DNA of 64,000 nt. Origin: Polyangium spumosum (GTDB lineage Bacteria; Myxococcota_A; Polyangia; Polyangiales; Polyangiaceae). Position numbers and translations under genes: made by a program. The notes under the pieces were generated by a model that did no database searches, had not been told where the DNA came from, and saw nothing but the letters and a program-made list of their open reading frames with translations. Each line of letters begins with the position of its first letter. Positions within the stretch are counted from its first letter, which is position 1. Positions 19,366 to 29,571 of this stretch are shown here, piece by piece. The stretch spans positions 744,001-808,000 of the forward strand of contig NZ_WJIE01000003.1 in assembly GCF_009649845.1 (NCBI RefSeq), in the 5' to 3' direction.

Positions 19366-21207
19366 TCAGGCGGAGCCGCCGCCGTAGATCACCTCCGAGA
19401 GACGGAAGGCCGCGGCCTCGAGCTTGCCGTAGGCGCCCCGCAGATCGCCGCTCGGCGCGTCCTCGTCGAGCAGCTTGCGCAGGATCACGCAGCCCTCGCG
19501 CACGCCGGAGAGCGTCGCCTCGTCGACGAGCTCGGCGTACGCCTCGATCGCCTGCTCCGTCGTGTAGAGCAGCGTCTCGGACTGGTTCTCGAGCTCGGCC
19601 CGATCACGCCTCTGCGCGTCTTCCTCGCGGAATTTTTCCGCCTCACCGACGAGCCGCTCGACCTCCGACGGAGCGAGCCCGCTCGTCGGCGTGACGCGCA
19701 CCTTGTGCGCGCGCCCCGTGCCGAGATCCGTGGCCTCGACGTGGACGATTCCATCCTCGTCGATGTTGAAGACGACCTGGATCTTCGGCACGCCTCGCGG
19801 CGCGGGCGGGATGCCCGAGAGCTCGAAGCGCGCGAGGCTCTGGTTGTCGGCCGCCATCTCGCGCTCGCCTTGCAGGACGTGGATCGGCACGAACGTCTGT
19901 CGATCGAGGCTCGTCGTGAAGATCTCGCCGCGCGAGGTGGGGATCGTGGTGTTGCGCGGGATGAGCCTGGTCATCACGCCGCCGCCCGTCTCCACGCCGA
20001 GCGAGAGCGGCGTGACGTCGAGCAGGAGGATCTCGTCGGCCTGCCCGGAGAGCGCCGCGGCCTGGAGCGCCGCGCCCACGGCCACGACCTCGTCCGGGTT
20101 CACGCCCTTGCACGGGTCCTTGCCGAAGAGCTCCTTCACGGCCGCCTGCACCGCGGGCATCCGCGTCATGCCGCCGACGAGCACCACGGTCTCGATCGCG
20201 CTCGGCGAGAGCCGCGCGTCCCCGAGCACGTCGCGGCACACCTCGATCGTCCGATCGACGAGGTCCTGCGTGAGCATCTCGAGCTCGTTGCGCTGCATGG
20301 ATCGTTCGAGGTGCAAGGGCGCGCCGTCCGACCCGACCGCGATGAAGGGCAGGTTGATCTGCGTGTCGAGCGAGGAGCTGAGCTCGTGCTTCGCCTTCTC
20401 CGCGGCCTCCTTCAGCCGCTGCATCGCCATCCGATCGCCGCGCAGATCCACGCCGAACTCGAGCTGGAACTCGCCGACGAGCATGTCCATCAGGCGCCCG
20501 TCGAAGTCCTCGCCGCCGAGGTGCGTGTCGCCGCCCGTCGCCTTCACGTTGAAGACGCCGCCGCTGATCTCGAGGATCGAGATGTCGAACGTGCCGCCGC
20601 CGAGGTCGTAGACCGCGATCGTCTCTGCGGCCTTGGCCTTCTTGTCGAGCCCGTACGCGAGCGCCGCCGCCGTGGGCTCGTTGATGATGCGGCGCACCTC
20701 GAGGCCGGCGATCTTGCCCGCGTCCTTCGTCGCTTGCCGCTGCGCGTCGTCGAAGTACGCGGGGACCGTGATCACCGCCTCGGTGACCGGCTCGCCGAGG
20801 AATCGCTCGGCGGTCTCCTTCATCTGCGCGAGGATCATCGCGCTGACCTCGGGCGGCGAGTGCGCCTTGCCGCGAAGCTCGACCCACGCGTCGCCGTTCT
20901 TCGCGGCGAGGATCGGGTACGGCACGAGCGAGGCGGCGCGCATCACGTCGGGCGAATCGAGCTTGCGCCCCATCAGGCGTTTGACCGCGTAGACCGTGCT
21001 CTGCGGGTTCGTCACGGCCTGCCTGCGGGCCACCTGCCCGACGAGCCGCTCGCCGCTCGCGACGATCGCGACGACCGAGGGCGTCGTCCGCGCGCCCTCG
21101 GCGTTGGGGATCACCTTGACGTCGTTCGCCGACGACGCCGCCGCCACGTCGACGACGGCCACGCACGAGTTGGTGGTCCCGAGGTCGATGCCGACGATCC
21201 TTCCCAT
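19366..21207 (-). CDS. dnaK: Hsp70 chaperone DnaK
   Basis: A 613-residue Hsp70. The ATPase domain holds [17 protein letters not shown] (phosphate 1), [59 protein letters not shown] (phosphate 2) and [14 protein letters not shown] (adenosine). The substrate domain starts after [30 protein letters not shown]. The helical lid is shorter than in E. coli DnaK, and the C-terminus ends YGGGSA instead of the EEVKDKK-type tail. This suggests a house variant or second-copy DnaK rather than the sole cellular one. It follows grpE by 87 bases on the same strand, so the two probably form an operon. Confidence 0.95.
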
Positions 21208-21294
21208 GGCGGGAGCGAGGATATCAAAGGCGCGCGAAGACGACGGCCCTCGAAGAGGGTTTCACGCGCCTTTCCTCGGACGTCCGCGAAAATC

Positions 21295-21900
21295 TCAGCT
21301 CGCGGCCGCCGCGCCGCCGCCGGGCGGGCCCTTGGACACCACGACCATCGCCGGACGGACGAGGTAGTCGCCCATGCGATAACCGGACTGCACCTCGTGC
21401 ATCACCACGCCGGCCGGATGCTCGGGCGACTCGATGTGCTGGATGGCCTCGTGCTGCGCGGGATCGAAGGGCTGGCCGACCGCGACGACGCGCTGGATCC
21501 CCATCTTCTCCAGCGTATCGAGGAACTGCTTCAGCACCATCCGCAGGCCCTCGGCCACGGCCTTCGCGTCGGCGGTGCCCTCGGCGTGCACGATCGCGCG
21601 CTCGAAATTATCGAAGACGGGCAGGAGATCCTTCACCGTGGTCTCCTTGCCCCGCCGGTGCGCGTCGTCGATCTCGCGCCGCGAGCGCTTGCGGAAATTG
21701 TCGAAATCGGCCGCCGTGCGCAGGAGCTGATCACGCGTGCGGGCGGACTCGGCCAGCGCATCCGCGAGGCGCTGCTCCACGCTGGGCGGCGGCGGAGCCT
21801 GGGGCTCGGCGGCGGCAGACGGCTGCTCGCCGCTCGTCGCCTCGCCGTTCTGACCGTTTGGATCCTGGGCAGACTTCGTCGTGGTCTCGGGCTCGGACAT
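21295..21900 (-). CDS. grpE: Nucleotide exchange factor GrpE
   Basis: A 201-residue co-chaperone that releases ADP from DnaK. A disordered acidic/Pro N-terminus (1-40) precedes the long dimerising helix ([46 protein letters not shown]). The beta domain then has the family signature [26 protein letters not shown]. The likely promoter (TTGCCA-N16-TATAGT) would start transcription only about 5 bases before the ATG at 21900. No Shine-Dalgarno sequence is visible, so the mRNA may be leaderless. No CIRCE element is seen although hrcA is in the window. It is divergent from argD. Confidence 0.94.
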
Positions 21901-22004: not shown

Positions 22005-23258
22005 ATGACCCTCGCCCCCGCGTACGGAGCCGAGAGCCCCATCGCCGAGCTGCTCGAGCCCGAAGACCTCCTCCCCATCGCCGAGCGACGGCTCGTGGGC
22101 AACTACCGCCAGGCCTCGTTCGTCCTCGAGCGCGGCAAGGGATGCGAGCTCTGGGACACCGAGGGGCGTCGCTACCTCGACTTCTGCGCCGGCGTCGCGG
22201 TCTGCTCGCTCGGCCACGCCCACCCGCGCCTCGTCGCCGCGATCGCCGAGCAAGCCGCGCGGCTGATGCACGTCTCGAACTACTTCTACAACGCGGAGAA
22301 CGCGCGCCTCGCCGACGAGCTCTGCAAAAAGAGCGGCATGGACCGCGCCTTCTTCTGCAACTCGGGCGCCGAGGCGAACGAGGCGATGCTCAAGCTCGCG
22401 CGGCGCTTCTTCTTCACGAGAGGCGAGCCCGACCGCTACCGCGTCATCGCCTTCGACAACGCCTTCCACGGCCGCACCCTGGGCGCGGTCGCGCTCACCG
22501 GCACCCCGAAATACCGCGAAGGGTTCGGCCCTCCGCTCGCCGGCGTCACGCACGTGCCCTACGGCGATCTCGACGCCGTCAAGGCCGCCATGGGGCCGGA
22601 CGTCGCCGCGATCTTCGTCGAGCCCGTCCAGGGCGAGGGCGGCGTGATCCCGCCGCCGAAGGGCTTCCTCCCCGGCCTCCGCAGCCTCTGCGACGCGCAC
22701 GGCGCGCTCCTCTGCCTCGACGAGGTGCAGACGGGCATCGGCCGCACGGGCACCTTCCTCGGCTCCGAGCACGACGGCGTCGAGGGCGACGCGATCGCCC
22801 TCGCCAAGGGCCTCGGCGGCGGCTTCCCGATCGGCGCGCTCCTCATCAAGGAGCGCTTGAACAGCGCCCTCACGCCAGGCACCCACGGCTCGACCTTCGG
22901 CGGCAACCCGCTCGCCTCGCGGGCCGCGCGCACCGTGCTCGCCGTCCTCGACGAGGAGAAGCTCATGGAAGGCGCCGTCACGAAGGGCCAGCGCCTCGCC
23001 GAGGGCCTCGCCGCGCTCGCGAAGGAGCACCCCGCCCTCTGCGTCGGACAACGCGGCCGCGGCCTCTTGCAAGGCCTCACGCTCGCGCAAGGCGTCGACA
23101 CGCGCGCCGTCCTCGGCCGCGCCCGCGCCCACGGCCTGCTCCTCACGGTCGCCGGCGCGACCACGTTGCGCTACACGCCGCCGCTCGTCGTGAGCGAGGC
23201 CGAGATCGACGAAGCCATCGCCATCACGGGCCGCGTGCTCGCGGAGATGAAGCCGTGA
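22005..23258 (+). CDS. argD: Acetylornithine aminotransferase
   Basis: A class III PLP-dependent aminotransferase of 417 residues that converts N-acetylglutamate semialdehyde to N-acetylornithine in arginine synthesis. It may also act in lysine (succinyl-DAP) synthesis. Signatures are YLDFCAGVAVCSLGHAHPRL, FFCNSGAEANEAMLKLARRF (PLP phosphate binding), FDNAFHGRTLGAVALTG, LLCLDEVQTGIGRTG (Asp contacting the PLP pyridine) and DAIALAKGLGGGFPIGALL with the Schiff-base Lys. Start ATG 22005 is chosen because upstream codons in frame look non-coding. Its stop overlaps the argF start (GTGA). Confidence 0.95.
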   Translation: MTLAPAYGAESPIAELLEPEDLLPIAERRLVGNYRQASFVLERGKGCELWDTEGRRYLDFCAGVAVCSLGHAHPRLVAAIAEQAARLMHVSNYFYNAENARLADELCKKSGMDRAFFCNSGAEANEAMLKLARRFFFTRGEPDRYRVIAFDNAFHGRTLGAVALTGTPKYREGFGPPLAGVTHVPYGDLDAVKAAMGPDVAAIFVEPVQGEGGVIPPPKGFLPGLRSLCDAHGALLCLDEVQTGIGRTGTFLGSEHDGVEGDAIALAKGLGGGFPIGALLIKERLNSALTPGTHGSTFGGNPLASRAARTVLAVLDEEKLMEGAVTKGQRLAEGLAALAKEHPALCVGQRGRGLLQGLTLAQGVDTRAVLGRARAHGLLLTVAGATTLRYTPPLVVSEAEIDEAIAITGRVLAEMKP

Positions 23259-24220
23259 AGCGTGATCTCCTGCGCCTCGCGGACCTCGGGGACGGCGGCA
23301 TCGTCGCCATGCTGGATCGTTCGGCATTTTTTGCCCGCGTGCGTGGCAAGCTCGACGAGCACCCGCGGCCGCTCGCCGGCCACGCCGTCGCCCTCCTCTT
23401 CGACAAGCCCTCGACCCGCACGCGCCTCTCGCTCGAGGTCGCCACCTACGAGCTCGGCGGTCACCCGATCATCGTCACGCCCGAGTCGACGCAGATGAGC
23501 CGCGGCGAGCCCACCGAGGACACGGCCCGCGTGCTCGGCCGCATGGTCTCCGCCGTCACGTACCGCACGAGCACCACGGCGCGCTTCGAGGCCATGGCCC
23601 GCGCCTGCCGCGCCCCCGTGCTGAACGCGCTCACCGACGACGCCCACCCCATGCAGGTCCTCGCCGATCTGCACACGACCCGCGAGGCCCGAGGCCGGCT
23701 CGACGGCCTGCGCATCTGCTGGGTCGGCGACGCGAGCAACGTGGCTCGCTCGTGGATCGAGGCCGCGGGCCTGCTGAAGCTCGACGTGACGCTCGCGACG
23801 CCGCCCGCCTTCGCCCCGCCCTTGCCCGAGGTCGAGGAGGCGCGCGCCCGCGGCGGTCAGATCACCATCACCGACGACGCGCGCGCGGCGGCCAAGGACG
23901 CCGACGTCCTGATCACGGACGTGTGGGTGAGCATGGGGCAGGAGACCGAACGCGACTACCGCATCAGCGCCCTCTCGCCCTACCGCATCACGCAGGAGCT
24001 CGTCTCGCTCGCCTCGCCCGAGGTCGTCGTGCTGCACTGCTTGCCCGCGCATCGCGGCGAGGAGATCGACGCCGACGTGCTCGAAGGCCCACGCAGCTTC
24101 GTGTGGGACGCGGTCGAGTCGCGGCTGCATACGAGCAAGGCCCTGCTCGAGTGGGCCGCGCTCGGGCCTGGCTTCGGCCCGCCGCCCTTCGCTGTCGGCC
24201 GCGGCGGCGCGGCAGGCTGA
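23255..24220 (+). CDS. argF: Ornithine carbamoyltransferase
   Basis: A 321-residue carbamoyltransferase making citrulline from ornithine and carbamoyl phosphate. The carbamoyl-phosphate loop DKPSTRTRLSLE, HPMQVLADLHT (HPxQ), WVGDASNVARSW and the ornithine-binding HCLPAHRGEEI are all present. Translation starts at a GTG that overlaps the argD stop by four bases, so the two are coupled. The C-terminus has a Gly/Pro/Ala-rich extension after LLEWAALG. A metal-pump-like gene follows 9 bases later. Confidence 0.95.
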   Translation: MKRDLLRLADLGDGGIVAMLDRSAFFARVRGKLDEHPRPLAGHAVALLFDKPSTRTRLSLEVATYELGGHPIIVTPESTQMSRGEPTEDTARVLGRMVSAVTYRTSTTARFEAMARACRAPVLNALTDDAHPMQVLADLHTTREARGRLDGLRICWVGDASNVARSWIEAAGLLKLDVTLATPPAFAPPLPEVEEARARGGQITITDDARAAAKDADVLITDVWVSMGQETERDYRISALSPYRITQELVSLASPEVVVLHCLPAHRGEEIDADVLEGPRSFVWDAVESRLHTSKALLEWAALGPGFGPPPFAVGRGGAAG

Positions 24221-24229
24221 GGCTCGACG

Positions 24230-26572
24230 TTGCGAGCGCTCGGACCCGTCGCCGATCCCGTGCCCTGCTCGGGGTGCGGCAAGCTGCTCGATCCGCTCCG
24301 CGCCGGCCACGTCGCGATCTTCGACAGCAAGTTCCACTTCTTCTGCGATCGCCACGCCTGCCGCGCGTGTTTCCTCGGCGAGCCTCCCGGCGAAGCGGAC
24401 GGCGCGCGCCCCGCGCGTGTCCCGCTCTCGCTCTTCGCGCCCCGCAGGTCCGAGCCCGAGCCCGCGCGCGGCCAGCTCGACGCGCCCATCGTCCCTTTCC
24501 ACGCGCCTGCTTCGAGCGACGCCGCGCTCCCCGAGCCGCCCGCGCCCTTCGACGACAGGACCCTCGTCGAGCCCATCGCGCACTCCATCCTCACCGAGGC
24601 GCCCTCCCGCATCGACGTGCCCGAGCCGCGTGACATCGGCGCGCTCCTGCTCGTCATCGCCACCATCGCGGGCACGCTCGCCGTCGCGCTCGGCCTCGCG
24701 GGCGACGCGGTCCTCGTCATCGGCGCTCGTATCGTCCTCGCCTCCGTCGGCGCGGGCATGCTCGTCGGCCGCGCCGCCACGACCCCGCGCGAGCCCTCCG
24801 ATCCGCACCCCGCGCCGATCCTCGCGCCCTCGATCCTCTCGCTCGTCCTCGCCACCTTCGCCGCGCTCCGCGCGCATCCGTCCCTCGGCTCCGAGGCCGC
24901 GTCGCTCGCCGGCCTCATCGTCACGGCGACGGCCGTCGGCGCATGGCTGCTCGAAGGCGCGCGGCACGCCTCCCTCGCCGAGCGCGCCTTCGTCGCGCAG
25001 TCGCTCGCCGTGCCTGGCAGGCGCGCGCCCGACGACGGCTCGGCCGGCGAGATCGCCAAGAAAAAGGTCTTCGACATCTGCCCTGGCGAGCAGGTCCTCG
25101 TCGAGCCGGGCGAGGTCGTCCCCGTTGATCTCGTCGTCGGCTCGGGCGAGGTCTTCGTCCTGCCCTGGCTCGGCGCGACCACGCCCGTGCGCAGGCGCGC
25201 GGGTGAGCCCGTCGTCGCGGGCGCGAAGGTCGTGCGCGGCAGGCTGCGCGGCACCTGCACCTTCGCCGGCAACGACCGCGCCTTCGCGCGCGTCCTGCTC
25301 GATCCGCGCAGGCGCGCCGACGCCCTCGCGCCCATCGCGCGGGCCTCGCGTGCCCTCGCCGAGCGCTGGTCGCTCGCGGCGCTCGTGACCGGCGCGCTCT
25401 CGGCCTTCATCGCCGGCGGACGCTCCGCCGTCGAGATCACGATGACCGCCGTCGCCTCCCACGCCGCGCTCGCCACCACGCTCGTCGCGGGTGTCGCCGG
25501 CGTGCACGTCGCGCGTGGCATCCTGCACGCCCAGCGCCGCGGCATCGCCTACAAGAGCGAGGGCGCCTGGGATCGCGCCGCGCGCGTCAACGTCGCCGTC
25601 TTCTGCGCGCGTGGCACGCTCCTCCTCGGCGAGCCCGAGCTCGCGGAGCTCGAAGCCACGGGCGGCAAGCTCGAGCCGCTCGACGTCCTCTCGCTCGCGG
25701 CAGGCGCCGAGCGCGGCGAAGAGCACCCGATCGCGACGGCGATCGTCCGCGCCGCCGTGACGCGCTCGGTGCGCCCCGACGGCGTGCGCAACGCGCATCA
25801 TGTCCCTGGCCTCGGCGTCACCGCCGTGACGAGCTCCGGCGAGGACCTCTGCGTCGGCAGCCGCGCCCTCCTCCTCGCGAACCGCATCTCCATCGCCGCG
25901 GCCGAGCAACGCATCGCCGAGCTCGAGGCCCTCGGCCGCACCGTCGTCCTCGTCGCCGTCGGCGCGCGCCTCGTCGGCATCCTTGGCCTGCAGGACGGCT
26001 TGCGCCCTGGCGCGCGCGCGGCCGTGCAGCACCTGCTCGACGCGCAGATCGAGCCTGTGATCATGTCGGGCGACGCGCGCGAGACGTGCGAGGCCATCGG
26101 CCACTCGCTCGACGTCGATCACATCCGCCCCGAGGTCCTGCCGACCGAGCGCGCGGCCGAGGTCCGCAGGCTCATCGACGCGGGCATGTCCGTCGCGGTC
26201 CTGGGTCATCCTGGCGTCGACGAAGGCGCGCTCGGCGCGGCGGACGTCGCGGTCGCGCTCGGCGCGGCGGGCTCTTCGCCGGGAGACCTCTCCGTCGCGC
26301 TCGCCTCGGATGACGTGCGTGACGCGGCGCTCGCGCTCGCCATCGCGCACCGGGCCCGCCTCGAGGCGCGCGTTGGCCTCCTCATCGCCGTCATCCCTGC
26401 GCTCGTCGGGGCGATCGCCGTGGCGTTTGGCGTGCTTCCGCCTGCGTATGCGCCGCTCGCCTCGCTCCTCGGCGGGGCGATGGCGGTTTTGCATGTGCGA
26501 GCGCTCGACCGCGTGCGGGAGTCGGGGAGCACGCGAGGACATACGTGGGAAAACGGTCCAAGCGACACTTGA
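24230..26572 (+). CDS. Catalytically degenerate P1B-type (metal) ATPase-like protein with N-terminal Cys domain
   Basis: A 780-residue protein starting at TTG 24230, 9 bases after argF with a GAGG RBS. The N-terminus (about 10-50) is a small Cys/His domain (PCSGCGKLLDPLRAGHVAIFDSKFHFFCD...CRACF) resembling YHS/TRASH metal-binding domains. The remainder follows the P1B ATPase layout with about 6-8 membrane helices, but the catalytic residues are gone. The phospho-Asp motif DKTGT reads C459-A-R-G-T. The membrane CPC position reads VASHAAL (408-414). The TGE-like loop reads AGEPVVAG, and the hinge GDGxND reads GHPGVDEG from 659. EEHPIATAI (the P1B HP motif) and MSGDARETCEAIG remain. It probably cannot pump by phosphorylation; a sensor or scaffold role is conceivable. 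Confidence 0.82.
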   Translation: MRALGPVADPVPCSGCGKLLDPLRAGHVAIFDSKFHFFCDRHACRACFLGEPPGEADGARPARVPLSLFAPRRSEPEPARGQLDAPIVPFHAPASSDAALPEPPAPFDDRTLVEPIAHSILTEAPSRIDVPEPRDIGALLLVIATIAGTLAVALGLAGDAVLVIGARIVLASVGAGMLVGRAATTPREPSDPHPAPILAPSILSLVLATFAALRAHPSLGSEAASLAGLIVTATAVGAWLLEGARHASLAERAFVAQSLAVPGRRAPDDGSAGEIAKKKVFDICPGEQVLVEPGEVVPVDLVVGSGEVFVLPWLGATTPVRRRAGEPVVAGAKVVRGRLRGTCTFAGNDRAFARVLLDPRRRADALAPIARASRALAERWSLAALVTGALSAFIAGGRSAVEITMTAVASHAALATTLVAGVAGVHVARGILHAQRRGIAYKSEGAWDRAARVNVAVFCARGTLLLGEPELAELEATGGKLEPLDVLSLAAGAERGEEHPIATAIVRAAVTRSVRPDGVRNAHHVPGLGVTAVTSSGEDLCVGSRALLLANRISIAAAEQRIAELEALGRTVVLVAVGARLVGILGLQDGLRPGARAAVQHLLDAQIEPVIMSGDARETCEAIGHSLDVDHIRPEVLPTERAAEVRRLIDAGMSVAVLGHPGVDEGALGAADVAVALGAAGSSPGDLSVALASDDVRDAALALAIAHRARLEARVGLLIAVIPALVGAIAVAFGVLPPAYAPLASLLGGAMAVLHVRALDRVRESGSTRGHTWENGPSDT

Positions 26573-26604
26573 CGCCCGGAAACGTGGACGGGATAAATGA
26601 GGCC

Positions 26605-27093
26605 ATGGTCGCGAGCGTGAGGGAGGAAGCCGTGACCCTGGACCGAGCCGCCGTGGATCGCTTGCGGGCTCGACTCCAGGCGTACATGGCCAAGAAGGGG
26701 TTGCGCTCGACCGCGCAGCGGCGGCTCATCGTCGACACCTTCTTCGAGGGCGCGTCGCACATGACGATCGAAGACCTGCTCACCGAGGTCCGCGTGCGCG
26801 ACAAGGGCATCGGTTACGCCACGGTCTACCGCACGCTCAAGCTGCTCGCCGAGTGCGGCGTGGCCTCCGAGCGCCGCTTCGGCGACGGCCTCAGTCGTTA
26901 CGAGCTCGCCGACGACGCCAAGTCGCACCACGACCACCTGATCTGCGTCGCTTGCGGCACCATCGTCGAGTTCGAGGAGCCGAAGATCGAGGCGCTGCAG
27001 GACGAGATCGCGAGCCGCTACGGCTTCCACGTCACCTCGCACAAGCACGAGATGTACGGCACCTGCGGCGACTGTCAGAAGAAGGTCTCTTGA
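26605..27093 (+). CDS. Fur-family metal-responsive transcriptional repressor
   Basis: A 162-residue Fur-family regulator (182 if GTG 26545, preceded by GAGG, is used). The winged-helix domain reads MAKKGLRSTAQRRLIVDTFFEGASHMTIEDLLTEVRVRDKGIGYATVYRTLKLLAECGVAS. The metal-binding region has SHHDHLICVACGTIVEFEEPKIE (His ligands and a first CxxC) and the C-terminal structural-zinc pair YGTCGDC. It could be Fur, Zur or PerR; I cannot separate these by eye. The upstream pseudo-P-type ATPase either overlaps it by 28 bases (GTG start) or ends 32 bases before it. Co-regulation in metal homeostasis is likely. Confidence 0.9.
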   Translation: MVASVREEAVTLDRAAVDRLRARLQAYMAKKGLRSTAQRRLIVDTFFEGASHMTIEDLLTEVRVRDKGIGYATVYRTLKLLAECGVASERRFGDGLSRYELADDAKSHHDHLICVACGTIVEFEEPKIEALQDEIASRYGFHVTSHKHEMYGTCGDCQKKVS

Positions 27094-27151: not shown

Positions 27152-28228
27152 TTACTCGCCGACCTGCGCGACGTAACTCACGCGCGCGACCGGATCGTAG
27201 AGCGGGTTCAAGACCTGCACCGGCGGGGCCACGAGCCCTGCGTACTGCGTGTTGTCGAGCACCACGTAGTAGAGCCCCGGCGCGAGGTTGAACTTCTTCG
27301 TCTGCGCCGGCCCTGGCGCGAGCGGCGCGCCGCCGAGCACCGGACCCGGCGCCGGCCCGAGCGGCTTGCCCGTCTGGTACGACTCGCGCCACATGTCGCC
27401 GACCGGCTTGGCGACGATCATCACGTCGACCGTCGGCCCCTGCACGCTCATCGTCAGGTAGAGCGATTGCCCCGATCCGACCTCGAAGGGCCCGAGGTAG
27501 TCGCGCGCGTTGCCGTGGATGTCCAAGCTCTCGTTCGCGAACGTGAACCTCTCGTCGTCCTGCACCTTGAACGGCTTGATGGGCTTGTTCGGCGGCGTGA
27601 GGATCCCGAGCGTGAACTCGTTGCCGCGGTCCTCGTTGGCCACGACCGTGAACCCACGCGTCAGCTCGCCCGTCATCACCTGGTTGCCGAAGAAGTTCGT
27701 CAACGTGCCGAAGGGCGGGATGTTCGAGGCGATGTTGAACGCGGGGTTCTCGATGTACCCGAGCCGGAAATCCGGCCCCGAGATGATGCGGTTGAGCCGT
27801 CCCCAGACGTAGATGTCGTCGTCGGCGATCGCGAAGTCGGGCCGCAGCTCGATCGTCGTCGACGCCGAGAACCCGACACGCTTGGCCGGGTTCATGTAGC
27901 CGTAGCCCGTGCCCGAGAAGCTCACCGCCACGGTTTGTCGTGCGTCGTCGACGGTGTAGTTACACGTCATCGGGAAGAAGCGGCCGATGGCGGGCGAGGC
28001 CGAGTCGGTCTTCAGCGAGACGCCTATCTTCAGCATCTCCGGACAGATCCGGCTCGCGCCGAAGTTCGAGAACAGCCACCACCGGAGCTGCGGGTTCGCG
28101 TTCACCACGCCGCCGGCACAAGGGCATCCGGCCACGGCGAAGGAGAGCGCGAGCACGAGCACGACCAGGAATGCGCCCGCCGGTCGGGCGGACGACTTGC
28201 GACGGGAGGCAAGCACGCGGATTACCAT
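27152..28228 (-). CDS. Putative lipoprotein of unknown function
   Basis: A 358-residue secreted protein. A signal peptide with long hydrophobic core (AGAFLVVLVLALSFAVAGC) ends in a lipobox VAGC, so Cys34 is likely lipidated. The mature part starts with a Cys-Pro-Cys motif and is beta-rich, with no family I recognise. It contains FSGTGYGYMNPAKRVGFSAST, a region describing folded strands (DFAIADDDIYVWGRLNR), and a Pro/Gly-rich stretch (GPAPGPVLGGAPLAPGPAQ) before a last strand pair LYYVVLDNTQYAGLV. Position after the lipobox does not show an Asp at +2. It is divergent from hrcA. Confidence 0.75.
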   Translation of the reverse strand: MVIRVLASRRKSSARPAGAFLVVLVLALSFAVAGCPCAGGVVNANPQLRWWLFSNFGASRICPEMLKIGVSLKTDSASPAIGRFFPMTCNYTVDDARQTVAVSFSGTGYGYMNPAKRVGFSASTTIELRPDFAIADDDIYVWGRLNRIISGPDFRLGYIENPAFNIASNIPPFGTLTNFFGNQVMTGELTRGFTVVANEDRGNEFTLGILTPPNKPIKPFKVQDDERFTFANESLDIHGNARDYLGPFEVGSGQSLYLTMSVQGPTVDVMIVAKPVGDMWRESYQTGKPLGPAPGPVLGGAPLAPGPAQTKKFNLAPGLYYVVLDNTQYAGLVAPPVQVLNPLYDPVARVSYVAQVGE

Positions 28229-28521: not shown

Positions 28522-29571
28522 ATGAGTGACCTGACGAACCGCTCTCGAAAGATCCTTCTCGCCGTCGTCACCGAGTTCATCTCGACCGGCGCCGCGGTGG
28601 GAAGTCGCACGCTCGCGCGCAAGTATGGCCTCGACCTCTCGGCGGCCTCCGTTCGCAACGTGCTCGCCGATCTCGAGGAGGCCGGCTACCTCAAGCAGCC
28701 GCATACGTCCGCGGGCCGCGTCCCTACCGATCGCGCGTTGCGCCTCTTCATCGACACGCTCGTGCAGGCGCGCGCCTACAGCCCCGAAGAGCAGGCCAAG
28801 CTCGGCCAACGTTTCGCCGAGATCTACGCGCTCGCGACAGACCCGATGCGCGAGGCCGGGCGGTACCTCTCCGAGCTCTCCGGCACGGCGGCGGTCATCG
28901 CCTCGCCGCGCACCGAGCTCCGCGCGCTCTCGCAGCTCCGCTTCATCCCCACGCGCCCCGGCCAGCTCCTCGCCGTGCTCGTCTTCTCCGACGGCTCCGT
29001 CGAGAACCGCTTCATCCAGATCGAAGAGGTCCCCGCCGAGCCGGAGCTCACGCGTATCCACAACCTGCTCGCCGACGTCATCGAAGGCCGCTCGCTCGGC
29101 GAAGCCCGCGACCTCTTCGCGCGCCGCCTCGCCGACGAACGTATCGCCCTCGACGCCTTGCGTCGCCGCGCCTTCGAGCTCGGTCGCCGCGCGACCGCCG
29201 ACGTGAACCGCCGCGGCGGCGACGTCGTCATCGAGGGCCAGGGCAAGCTCATCGACCTGCCCGAGTACACCGACGCGTCGCGCTTGAAGAAGCTGCTCCG
29301 CGCCCTCACCGAGCGCGAGGATCTGCTCAAGCTGCTCGACAAGGTCATCGCCGCGGGCGCGGTCACGGTGTTCGTCGGCAGCGAGGCCGGCGAGCTCGGC
29401 GAAGGTGATCTCAGCCTCGTCGTCGCGCCGTACACCGAGCACGGCCGCGTCGCCGGCACCATCGGCGTCCTCGGCCCGACGCGTATGGACTACGCGAAGG
29501 TCATGCCCCTCGTCGACGCGACGGCCACCGCGATGAGCGAAGCGCTCGGCGGTCGGCGTGGCTCATCCTGA
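28522..29571 (+). CDS. hrcA: Heat-inducible transcription repressor HrcA
   Basis: A 349-residue repressor of chaperone operons that binds CIRCE and is kept active by GroEL in well-studied bacteria. The N-terminal winged-helix domain reads LTNRSRKILLAVVTEFISTGAAVGSRTLARKYGLDLSAASVRNVLADLEEAGYLKQPHTSAGRVPTDRALRLFID, the family hallmark. The GAF-like and dimerisation domains follow, ending with SLVVAPYTEHGRVAGTIGVLGPTRMDYAKVMPLVD. Its 3' end overlaps the convergent pseudouridine synthase gene by 9 bases. grpE-dnaK lies about 7 kb away rather than adjacent. Confidence 0.95.
   Translation: MSDLTNRSRKILLAVVTEFISTGAAVGSRTLARKYGLDLSAASVRNVLADLEEAGYLKQPHTSAGRVPTDRALRLFIDTLVQARAYSPEEQAKLGQRFAEIYALATDPMREAGRYLSELSGTAAVIASPRTELRALSQLRFIPTRPGQLLAVLVFSDGSVENRFIQIEEVPAEPELTRIHNLLADVIEGRSLGEARDLFARRLADERIALDALRRRAFELGRRATADVNRRGGDVVIEGQGKLIDLPEYTDASRLKKLLRALTEREDLLKLLDKVIAAGAVTVFVGSEAGELGEGDLSLVVAPYTEHGRVAGTIGVLGPTRMDYAKVMPLVDATATAMSEALGGRRGSS

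Follow-up and report, generated by a model that had tools for sequence, protein, structure and literature searches.

The closest described relatives of the protein studied here are the CopA-type P1B copper ATPases, represented by AfCopA (3a1c, 7r0g) and LpCopA (4bbj). The protein is encoded in a 64,000-nucleotide stretch of Polyangium spumosum DNA (contig NZ_WJIE01000003.1, positions 744,001 to 808,000; hereafter the window), where its gene lies directly behind the arginine-synthesis gene argF. It shares with these pumps the predicted fold, the domain order, and eight membrane helices, as well as the HP and GxG motifs of the nucleotide-binding (N) domain, SGD in place of TGD, and the last Asp of GDGxND. 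However, it does not possess the phosphorylatable Asp, TGE, CPC, the M5 Tyr-Asn, the M6 Met, or the first Asp of GDGxND, and it carries Arg where the pumps have the motif-III Lys. It also scores only 203.4 bits against the NCBIfam model for heavy-metal P-type ATPases (TIGR01525), under the curated cut-off of 346.25. We therefore refer to it as a pseudo-ATPase.

The YHS-domain P1B-ATPases of the same order, Polyangiales (L002/L153 in the same genome; L150-L152), likewise have a YHS/TRASH-type Cys domain N-terminal to a P1B body, but they carry all catalytic motifs and form a separate group on the tree. The first metal position of this domain is Asp in 15/31, Cys in 4/31, and gapped in 11/31 of the pumps, whereas it is Cys in 91/97 members of the pseudo-ATPase family. 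A YHS-type domain is also present on a regulatory protein, the adenylyl cyclase of Mycobacterium phlei, where it is described as a probable copper-sensing input (PMC4626032). In that protein the domain is joined to an active cyclase as effector, whereas in the pseudo-ATPase it is joined to a pump body that lacks the catalytic residues. Two P-type ATPase families of Myxococcus xanthus, 27 and 32, are named without comparable sequence in the accessible portion of the paper concerned (PMC3924187). The main text of a 2023 review devoted to unresolved questions about P-type ATPases, as far as it was available (PMC10654040), does not contain the word "inactive", and its sole "pseudo" occurs in a species name.

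Our literature search returned no paper pairing a P-type ATPase with the terms pseudoenzyme or pseudo-ATPase; the 2010 family survey of Chan et al. lay outside that search and could list members under a FUPA number. Further searches, among the matches listed, gave no description of such an inactive P-type ATPase. Among kinases and phosphatases, pseudoenzymes are a familiar phenomenon.

Motif losses and predicted scaffold

For the motif comparison, we aligned 97 distinct homologues and 31 intact P1B pumps. The homologues come from Polyangiales and a single neighbouring lineage, the pumps from Polyangiales. DKTGT and CPC are present in 31/31 pumps, TGE or SGE in 31/31, and GDGxND in 30/31, the remaining row being gapped there. 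The phosphorylated Asp of DKTGT is found in 0/97 homologues; its column holds Cys in 69 rows and Ser in 12, with Leu, Ala, Gln, Val, Asn, or others elsewhere. The neighbouring Lys is missing in 97/97, and the first Thr has become Arg in 81/97. An earlier reading of this DNA made from the letters alone (the sequence-only reading) had given CARGT, with Cys459, at this site, and the alignment agrees. Because so many other residues occupy the column across homologues, it is unlikely that Cys459 serves as a new nucleophile as a general rule.

CPC is likewise found in 0/97 homologues. The same reading was right that it is lost but misplaced the replacement, since ASHAA occupies residues 409-413, just ahead of the true CPC columns at residues 415-417, so that the site had been placed six residues off. 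At the TGE site, also correctly read as lost, the Thr column is gapped in 97/97 homologues, Gly-Glu is left in one row without the Thr, and the family consensus is PWxGA. In GDGxND, 1/96 homologues retain the first Asp and 1/96 the Asn; the column of that Asp holds His in 45 rows and Arg in 33. The motif had been described as wholly replaced, which holds for the first Asp (His here) and the Asn but not for the last Asp, kept as D664 here and as Asp in 89/97 homologues. At the columns matching the Tyr-Asn of helix M5 and the Met of helix M6 in the pumps, the homologues have Tyr in 0/95, Asn in 0/95, and Met in 1/95 rows. The residues needed for phosphorylation, dephosphorylation, and the metal path are thus gone, leaving no route to pumping by the known cycle, and we infer that the pseudo-ATPase neither pumps nor hydrolyses ATP by that cycle.

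The motif-III Lys is Arg in 84/97 homologues. Summed over eight pocket positions, the charge is -2 in 30/31 pumps (the gapped row gives 0) and at least 0 in 86/97 homologues. The aligned columns suggest that the catalytic pocket has gained basic residues (R461, R641, and H/R660) and lost acidic ones.

The overall architecture of the pump appears to be retained. Pfam places the E1-E2 ATPase (PF00122) and haloacid dehalogenase (HAD) hydrolase domains above their cut-offs, and the general HAD-IC P-type model TIGR01494 passes at 78.5 against a cut-off of 62.3. The AlphaFold2 model, built from a 58-row family alignment, has a predicted local distance difference test (pLDDT) of 89 and a predicted template modelling score (pTM) of 0.82. 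It contains eight membrane-length helices together with the actuator (A), phosphorylation (P), and N domains. In a Foldseek search of the model, LpCopA was the top match (4bbj, 8.2e-33), followed by AfCopA (7r0g, TM score 0.71 by target). Moreover, VIA-align superimposed the P and N part on the nucleotide-bound P/N domains of CopA (3a1c, 3a1d, 3a1e) with Z scores of 26.9-27.2 at 1.8-2.0 A. The individual values were Z 26.9 over 264 residues for 3a1c and Z 25.1 over 613 residues for 7r0g_B. A similar order of elements was modelled for L131, a member linked to argH (pLDDT 88, pTM 0.81). Overall, the models predict that the complete P1B scaffold, with eight helices and the A, P, and N domains, is retained.

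Retained parts, selection, and family history

While the catalytic residues are lost, other parts of the protein have been kept. The N-terminal metal-binding-like Cys domain recognised by the sequence-only reading has all four of its cysteines, C13, C16, C39, and C44. The first three are Cys in 91/97 homologues each and C44 in 89/97, and the Cys-x2-Cys ... Cys-x3/4-Cys pattern is invariant in a 31-row family alignment. Pfam found no match at the N terminus of the window protein, and gave weak matches among members to DUF7576 (24/58), zf-FCS (10/58), and TRASH_HVO_1752_C (8/58). Comparison with the YHS domains of 15 intact pumps by hhalign gave a probability of 84.6. In the N domain, the HP motif is retained at residues 499-500, as had been read, G527 is kept in 92/97 and G529 in 94/97 homologues, and both glycines (GxG) are kept in 91/97. 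Residues E494, H499, G527, and G529, which correspond to the positions that contact ATP in CopA, are all four intact in 53/97. Of 142 columns near-invariant in the pumps (30 or 31 of 31 rows), 27 stay in at least 80% of homologues, including the N-domain glycines and D664.

We compared conservation by region as the share of the commonest residue; the homologue and pump sets were sampled to different depth, and the values describe patterns rather than rates. Conservation in homologues versus pumps is 0.38 versus 0.64 in MA-M2, 0.48 versus 0.70 in the A domain, 0.41 versus 0.78 in M3-M4, and 0.47 versus 0.74 in M5-M6. The two parts of the P domain give 0.61 versus 0.75 and 0.64 versus 0.72, and the N domain 0.57 versus 0.57. 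An apparent rise in the four-Cys domain (0.53 versus 0.36) was dropped because a third of the pump letters there are gaps; the gap-free values are 0.56 and 0.53. In L133, L134, L145, and L146, most P-domain signatures are gone while the four-Cys domain stays, as if it were the last part under selection.

The gene itself is under purifying selection. Its ratio of nonsynonymous to synonymous substitution rates (dN/dS) is 0.080-0.095 between the window and four other Polyangium records. For the same records the ratio is 0.12-0.19 for argD, argF, and fur, 0.15-0.19 for a lipoprotein-like open reading frame at 27152, 0.16-0.29 for grpE, and 0.21-0.25 for dnaK, with hrcA lower at 0.027-0.053. Across the family, 17/17 pairs fall within 0.06-0.29. 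The slowest-changing parts among Polyangium are the P and N domains, with a nonsynonymous difference (pN) of 0.00-0.01. Copies of 96% identity occur in five other Polyangium genomes with no internal stop, and in 86/97 rows a single open frame spans at least 85% of the family model. The remaining rows comprise three truncated by a contig end or close to one, seven divergent ones, and the broken L017. The frame in the window is intact, and its GC content at third codon positions (0.91) lies within the range of its neighbours (0.90-0.95), as expected from the normal codon use noted earlier.

The losses are clade-wide, not local decay, since the phosphorylated Asp and CPC are missing in 97/97 homologues and dN/dS is low. 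Where examined, homologues in other Polyangium genomes and in related genera are also without the motifs and are not normal ATPases, and the earlier view that this is not a decaying pseudogene is borne out. Catalytic residues have thus been lost across a clade in which the gene remains under purifying selection, which is what characterises a pseudoenzyme. That the headpiece and the four-Cys domain are under selection implies that those parts still have some role.

At an E value of 1e-60, matches were found in 79/98 genomes of the family and, in a 377-genome sample of the phylum, in 45/377, all within the order. At 1e-50 there were matches in 138/183 genomes of the order, a set whose motifs were checked in part. 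One branch with a Shimodaira-Hasegawa-like approximate likelihood ratio test (SH-aLRT) support of 100 separates 89 homologues from the 31 pumps on a tree built by a quick method, with SH-aLRT in place of bootstrap. The placement of long branches on this tree is unsure, among them L128, L147, and the L133/L134 pair, where long branches meet beside the pumps. Most simply, this is an ancient pseudo-P1B-ATPase of Polyangiales with a single origin.

With the four-Cys domain as query, we reached the degenerate relatives L133 and L134 (f14, same class) and further divergent ones in the order. Among the loci read outside the order, it gave HEAT-repeat-like proteins and the two degenerate f14 relatives. 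In L135-L139 and L140, from other families of the class, a Cys-x2-Cys...Cys-x3-Cys domain stands N-terminal on HEAT-repeat-like membrane proteins, as judged by eye; queries for arg genes at these loci gave no match.

Arginine genes and fur around the pseudo-ATPase

Downstream of argD and argF, the pseudo-ATPase gene is tightly packed. The argD and argF genes overlap by four bases (GTGA), and nine bases separate the argF stop from the TTG start, a spacing that the sequence-only reading gave exactly. Both the TTG start and the 9-base gap are identical in four other Polyangium records. The gap to the Fur-family gene is at most 32 bases, or an overlap, depending on the fur start. Because of the tight packing behind argF, it is likely that argD, argF, the pseudo-ATPase gene, and fur share one transcript, as had been proposed. 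The argH gene of this Polyangium lies on another contig. The coordinates are listed in Table 1.

Table 1 Features of the pseudo-ATPase locus in the window
Feature	Position	Strand	Basis
Pseudo-P1B-type ATPase, 780 aa, TTG start	24230..26572	+	Open reading frame, domain searches, alignment, predicted fold
Four-Cys TRASH/YHS-like N-terminal domain, residues 10-50, C13/C16/C39/C44	24257..24379	+	Alignment, hhalign
Predicted helices MA, MB, M1, M2, residues 136-260	24635..25009	+	AlphaFold2 helices 136-157, 161-184, 194-214, 217-259; names by analogy
Actuator domain without TGE, residues 261-362	25010..25315	+	PF00122; TGE columns lost
CPC position, here Ala-Thr-Thr, residues 415-417	25472..25480	+	Alignment to intact pumps
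DKTGT position, here CARGT, residues 459-463	25604..25618	+	Sequence and alignment
N (nucleotide-binding) domain, residues 476-585, HP 499-500 and G527/G529 kept	25655..25984	+	Alignment, structure match
GDGxND position, here GHPGVD, residues 659-664	26204..26221	+	Alignment
argD, acetylornithine aminotransferase, start approximate	22005..23258	+	Homologue-cluster representative L075 matches TIGR00707 above cut-off
argF, ornithine carbamoyltransferase	23255..24220	+	TIGR00658 above cut-off at G000:C3:767261-768154 and orthologue L005
Fur-family regulator, alternative start 26545	26605..27093	+	PF01475, 6.1e-35

To describe the neighbourhood across the family, we took a single locus from each of 88 genomes, left the window out of the count, and treated an arg gene within 1.3 kb as adjacent. 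Neighbours were labelled by NCBIfam through one representative each (argD TIGR00707, argF TIGR00658, argH TIGR00838, lysA TIGR01048). An arg gene (argD/argF or argH) is adjacent in 68/88 loci. At the level of Polyangiaceae (f1), argD and/or argF lie upstream on the same strand in 52/58 loci. By comparison, argH lies downstream on the same strand in 14/14 loci of f2, f3, f7, and f8, with lysA next in 12, and a divergent argH is present in 2/4 loci of f5. Queries for arg genes, lysA, fur, frr, and cluster 14 (described below) gave no match at 34 intact-pump loci (32 distinct places). Among 50 homologue loci whose flanks are mostly of similar length, 43 contain an arg gene; this set is not matched genome by genome to the pump loci. 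The arg linkage requires six changes on the tree among 85 rows, and fur requires seven among 89. With six changes, the arg linkage is old and mostly inherited, in two arrangements.

The earlier reading had coupled the gene to both the arg genes and Fur. The Fur-family gene just downstream is real in the window, and arg genes are the steadier neighbours across the family, but fur is downstream in only 23/88 loci and on the opposite strand in four of these. Fur as a constant partner or main link is rejected accordingly.

Several other neighbours were observed. In three of the six f4 loci (L069, L125, L132), frr, encoding ribosome recycling factor (TIGR00496), follows the homologue directly in place of an arg gene. 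Outside Polyangiaceae, a conserved uncharacterised protein of about 450-700 residues (cluster 14) recurs near the homologue, often directly upstream (L060, L062, L064, L066, L071, L073, L110, L130, L131). In the window, dnaK and grpE (19366-21900) sit upstream of argD-argF in divergent orientation, and hrcA (28522-29571) lies just past fur; only some members of the pseudo-ATPase family retain this heat-shock neighbourhood.

Proposed function and rival explanations

We propose that the pseudo-ATPase is a membrane-bound regulator or scaffold that binds a nucleotide or anion and a metal and is co-expressed with arginine synthesis, a reading with an inferred ligand and partner to which we would give an even chance. 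The membrane part would anchor the protein, and the cytosolic N/P headpiece may close around a ligand, either a nucleotide or some other metabolite that is phosphorylated or anionic, with the kept glycine pair and the putative basic pocket holding it in place. The four-Cys domain would hold a transition metal (Zn2+ or Cu), either structurally or as a second input. Binding would shift the conformation, and the shift would be passed by contact to co-expressed partners, the likeliest being enzymes or regulators of the arginine route. A fuller version seems unlikely as a whole. It holds that a P-type ATPase was turned once, in the Polyangiales ancestor, into a non-pumping regulator in which the basic pocket reads a phosphorylated metabolite (candidates are carbamoyl phosphate or ATP/ADP), the four-Cys domain reads a metal, and domain motion switches arginine enzymes.

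It is rather unlikely that the protein acts with Fur as a metal sensor or regulator, with the four-Cys domain sensing Cu, Zn, or Fe and signalling to the adjacent Fur-family protein. The four cysteines are among the most constant residues, fur overlaps the gene or lies within 32 bases of it here, and the M. phlei cyclase offers a precedent for a YHS domain as probable copper sensor (PMC4626032). However, the membrane metal path is gone, and the neighbour counts for fur against those for arg genes mean that a metal sensor feeding Fur is not the best reading. We also find doubtful a structural role without a small-molecule ligand, in which the dead pump body holds partner proteins at the membrane as an anchor or chaperone. 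While the helices are predicted to be kept despite drift of the membrane sequence, and the most divergent rows (L133, L145) retain the four-Cys domain with little P-domain signature, the slow evolution of the N and P domains among Polyangium and the persistent N-domain glycines exceed what an anchor should require. We consider it quite improbable that the protein is still a transporter or a channel whose chemistry is new, such as a passive path for an amino-acid intermediate. All eight helices are predicted with high confidence, but the CPC, M5 Tyr-Asn, and M6 Met columns have no single replacement residue, and the drop in conservation is largest in the membrane. Loss of all catalytic motifs in a single copy would look alike in a decaying pseudogene or a sequencing error, and two other copies are indeed broken, L017 by one in-frame stop and G043, outside the 97 rows, into two pieces. 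For the window copy, decay or a frame error is nevertheless refuted by the intact frames of its relatives, the dN/dS values, and the identical losses throughout the clade, which makes this explanation vanishingly improbable.

Several observations weigh against the proposed role as a ligand-binding regulator linked to arginine synthesis. Twenty of the 88 loci have no arg neighbour, four of these ending at a contig edge, and f4 is without one in 6/6 loci. With just six shifts on the gene tree, the 68 linked loci represent few independent events. The basic pocket comes from the alignment, not from model coordinates, and H499 is retained in only 65/97 homologues. Lineages f9 and f14 are without most of the remaining signatures, and the broken copies L017 and G043 count on the same side. 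In addition, we checked the absence of members by a profile search in 20 chosen genomes, which gave 35 matches; 20 loci were read, and DKTGT was present in 17 and absent from L185, L198, and L201. Neither this search nor the one with the four-Cys domain found a member in G012, G054, G123, and G169, where argF scores above its cut-off; these genomes are 97-100% complete, and a very divergent copy could be missed there. Co-loss with arginine synthesis is therefore unsupported, and since argF persists in near-complete genomes with no detected copy, the pseudo-ATPase is probably not required for the arginine pathway. A regulatory or conditional role in that pathway is possible.

If the proposed reading is true, an inactive P-type ATPase kept under selection across an order would mean that the pump scaffold can serve another job, and the linkage to arginine genes would give a concrete place to look for that job.

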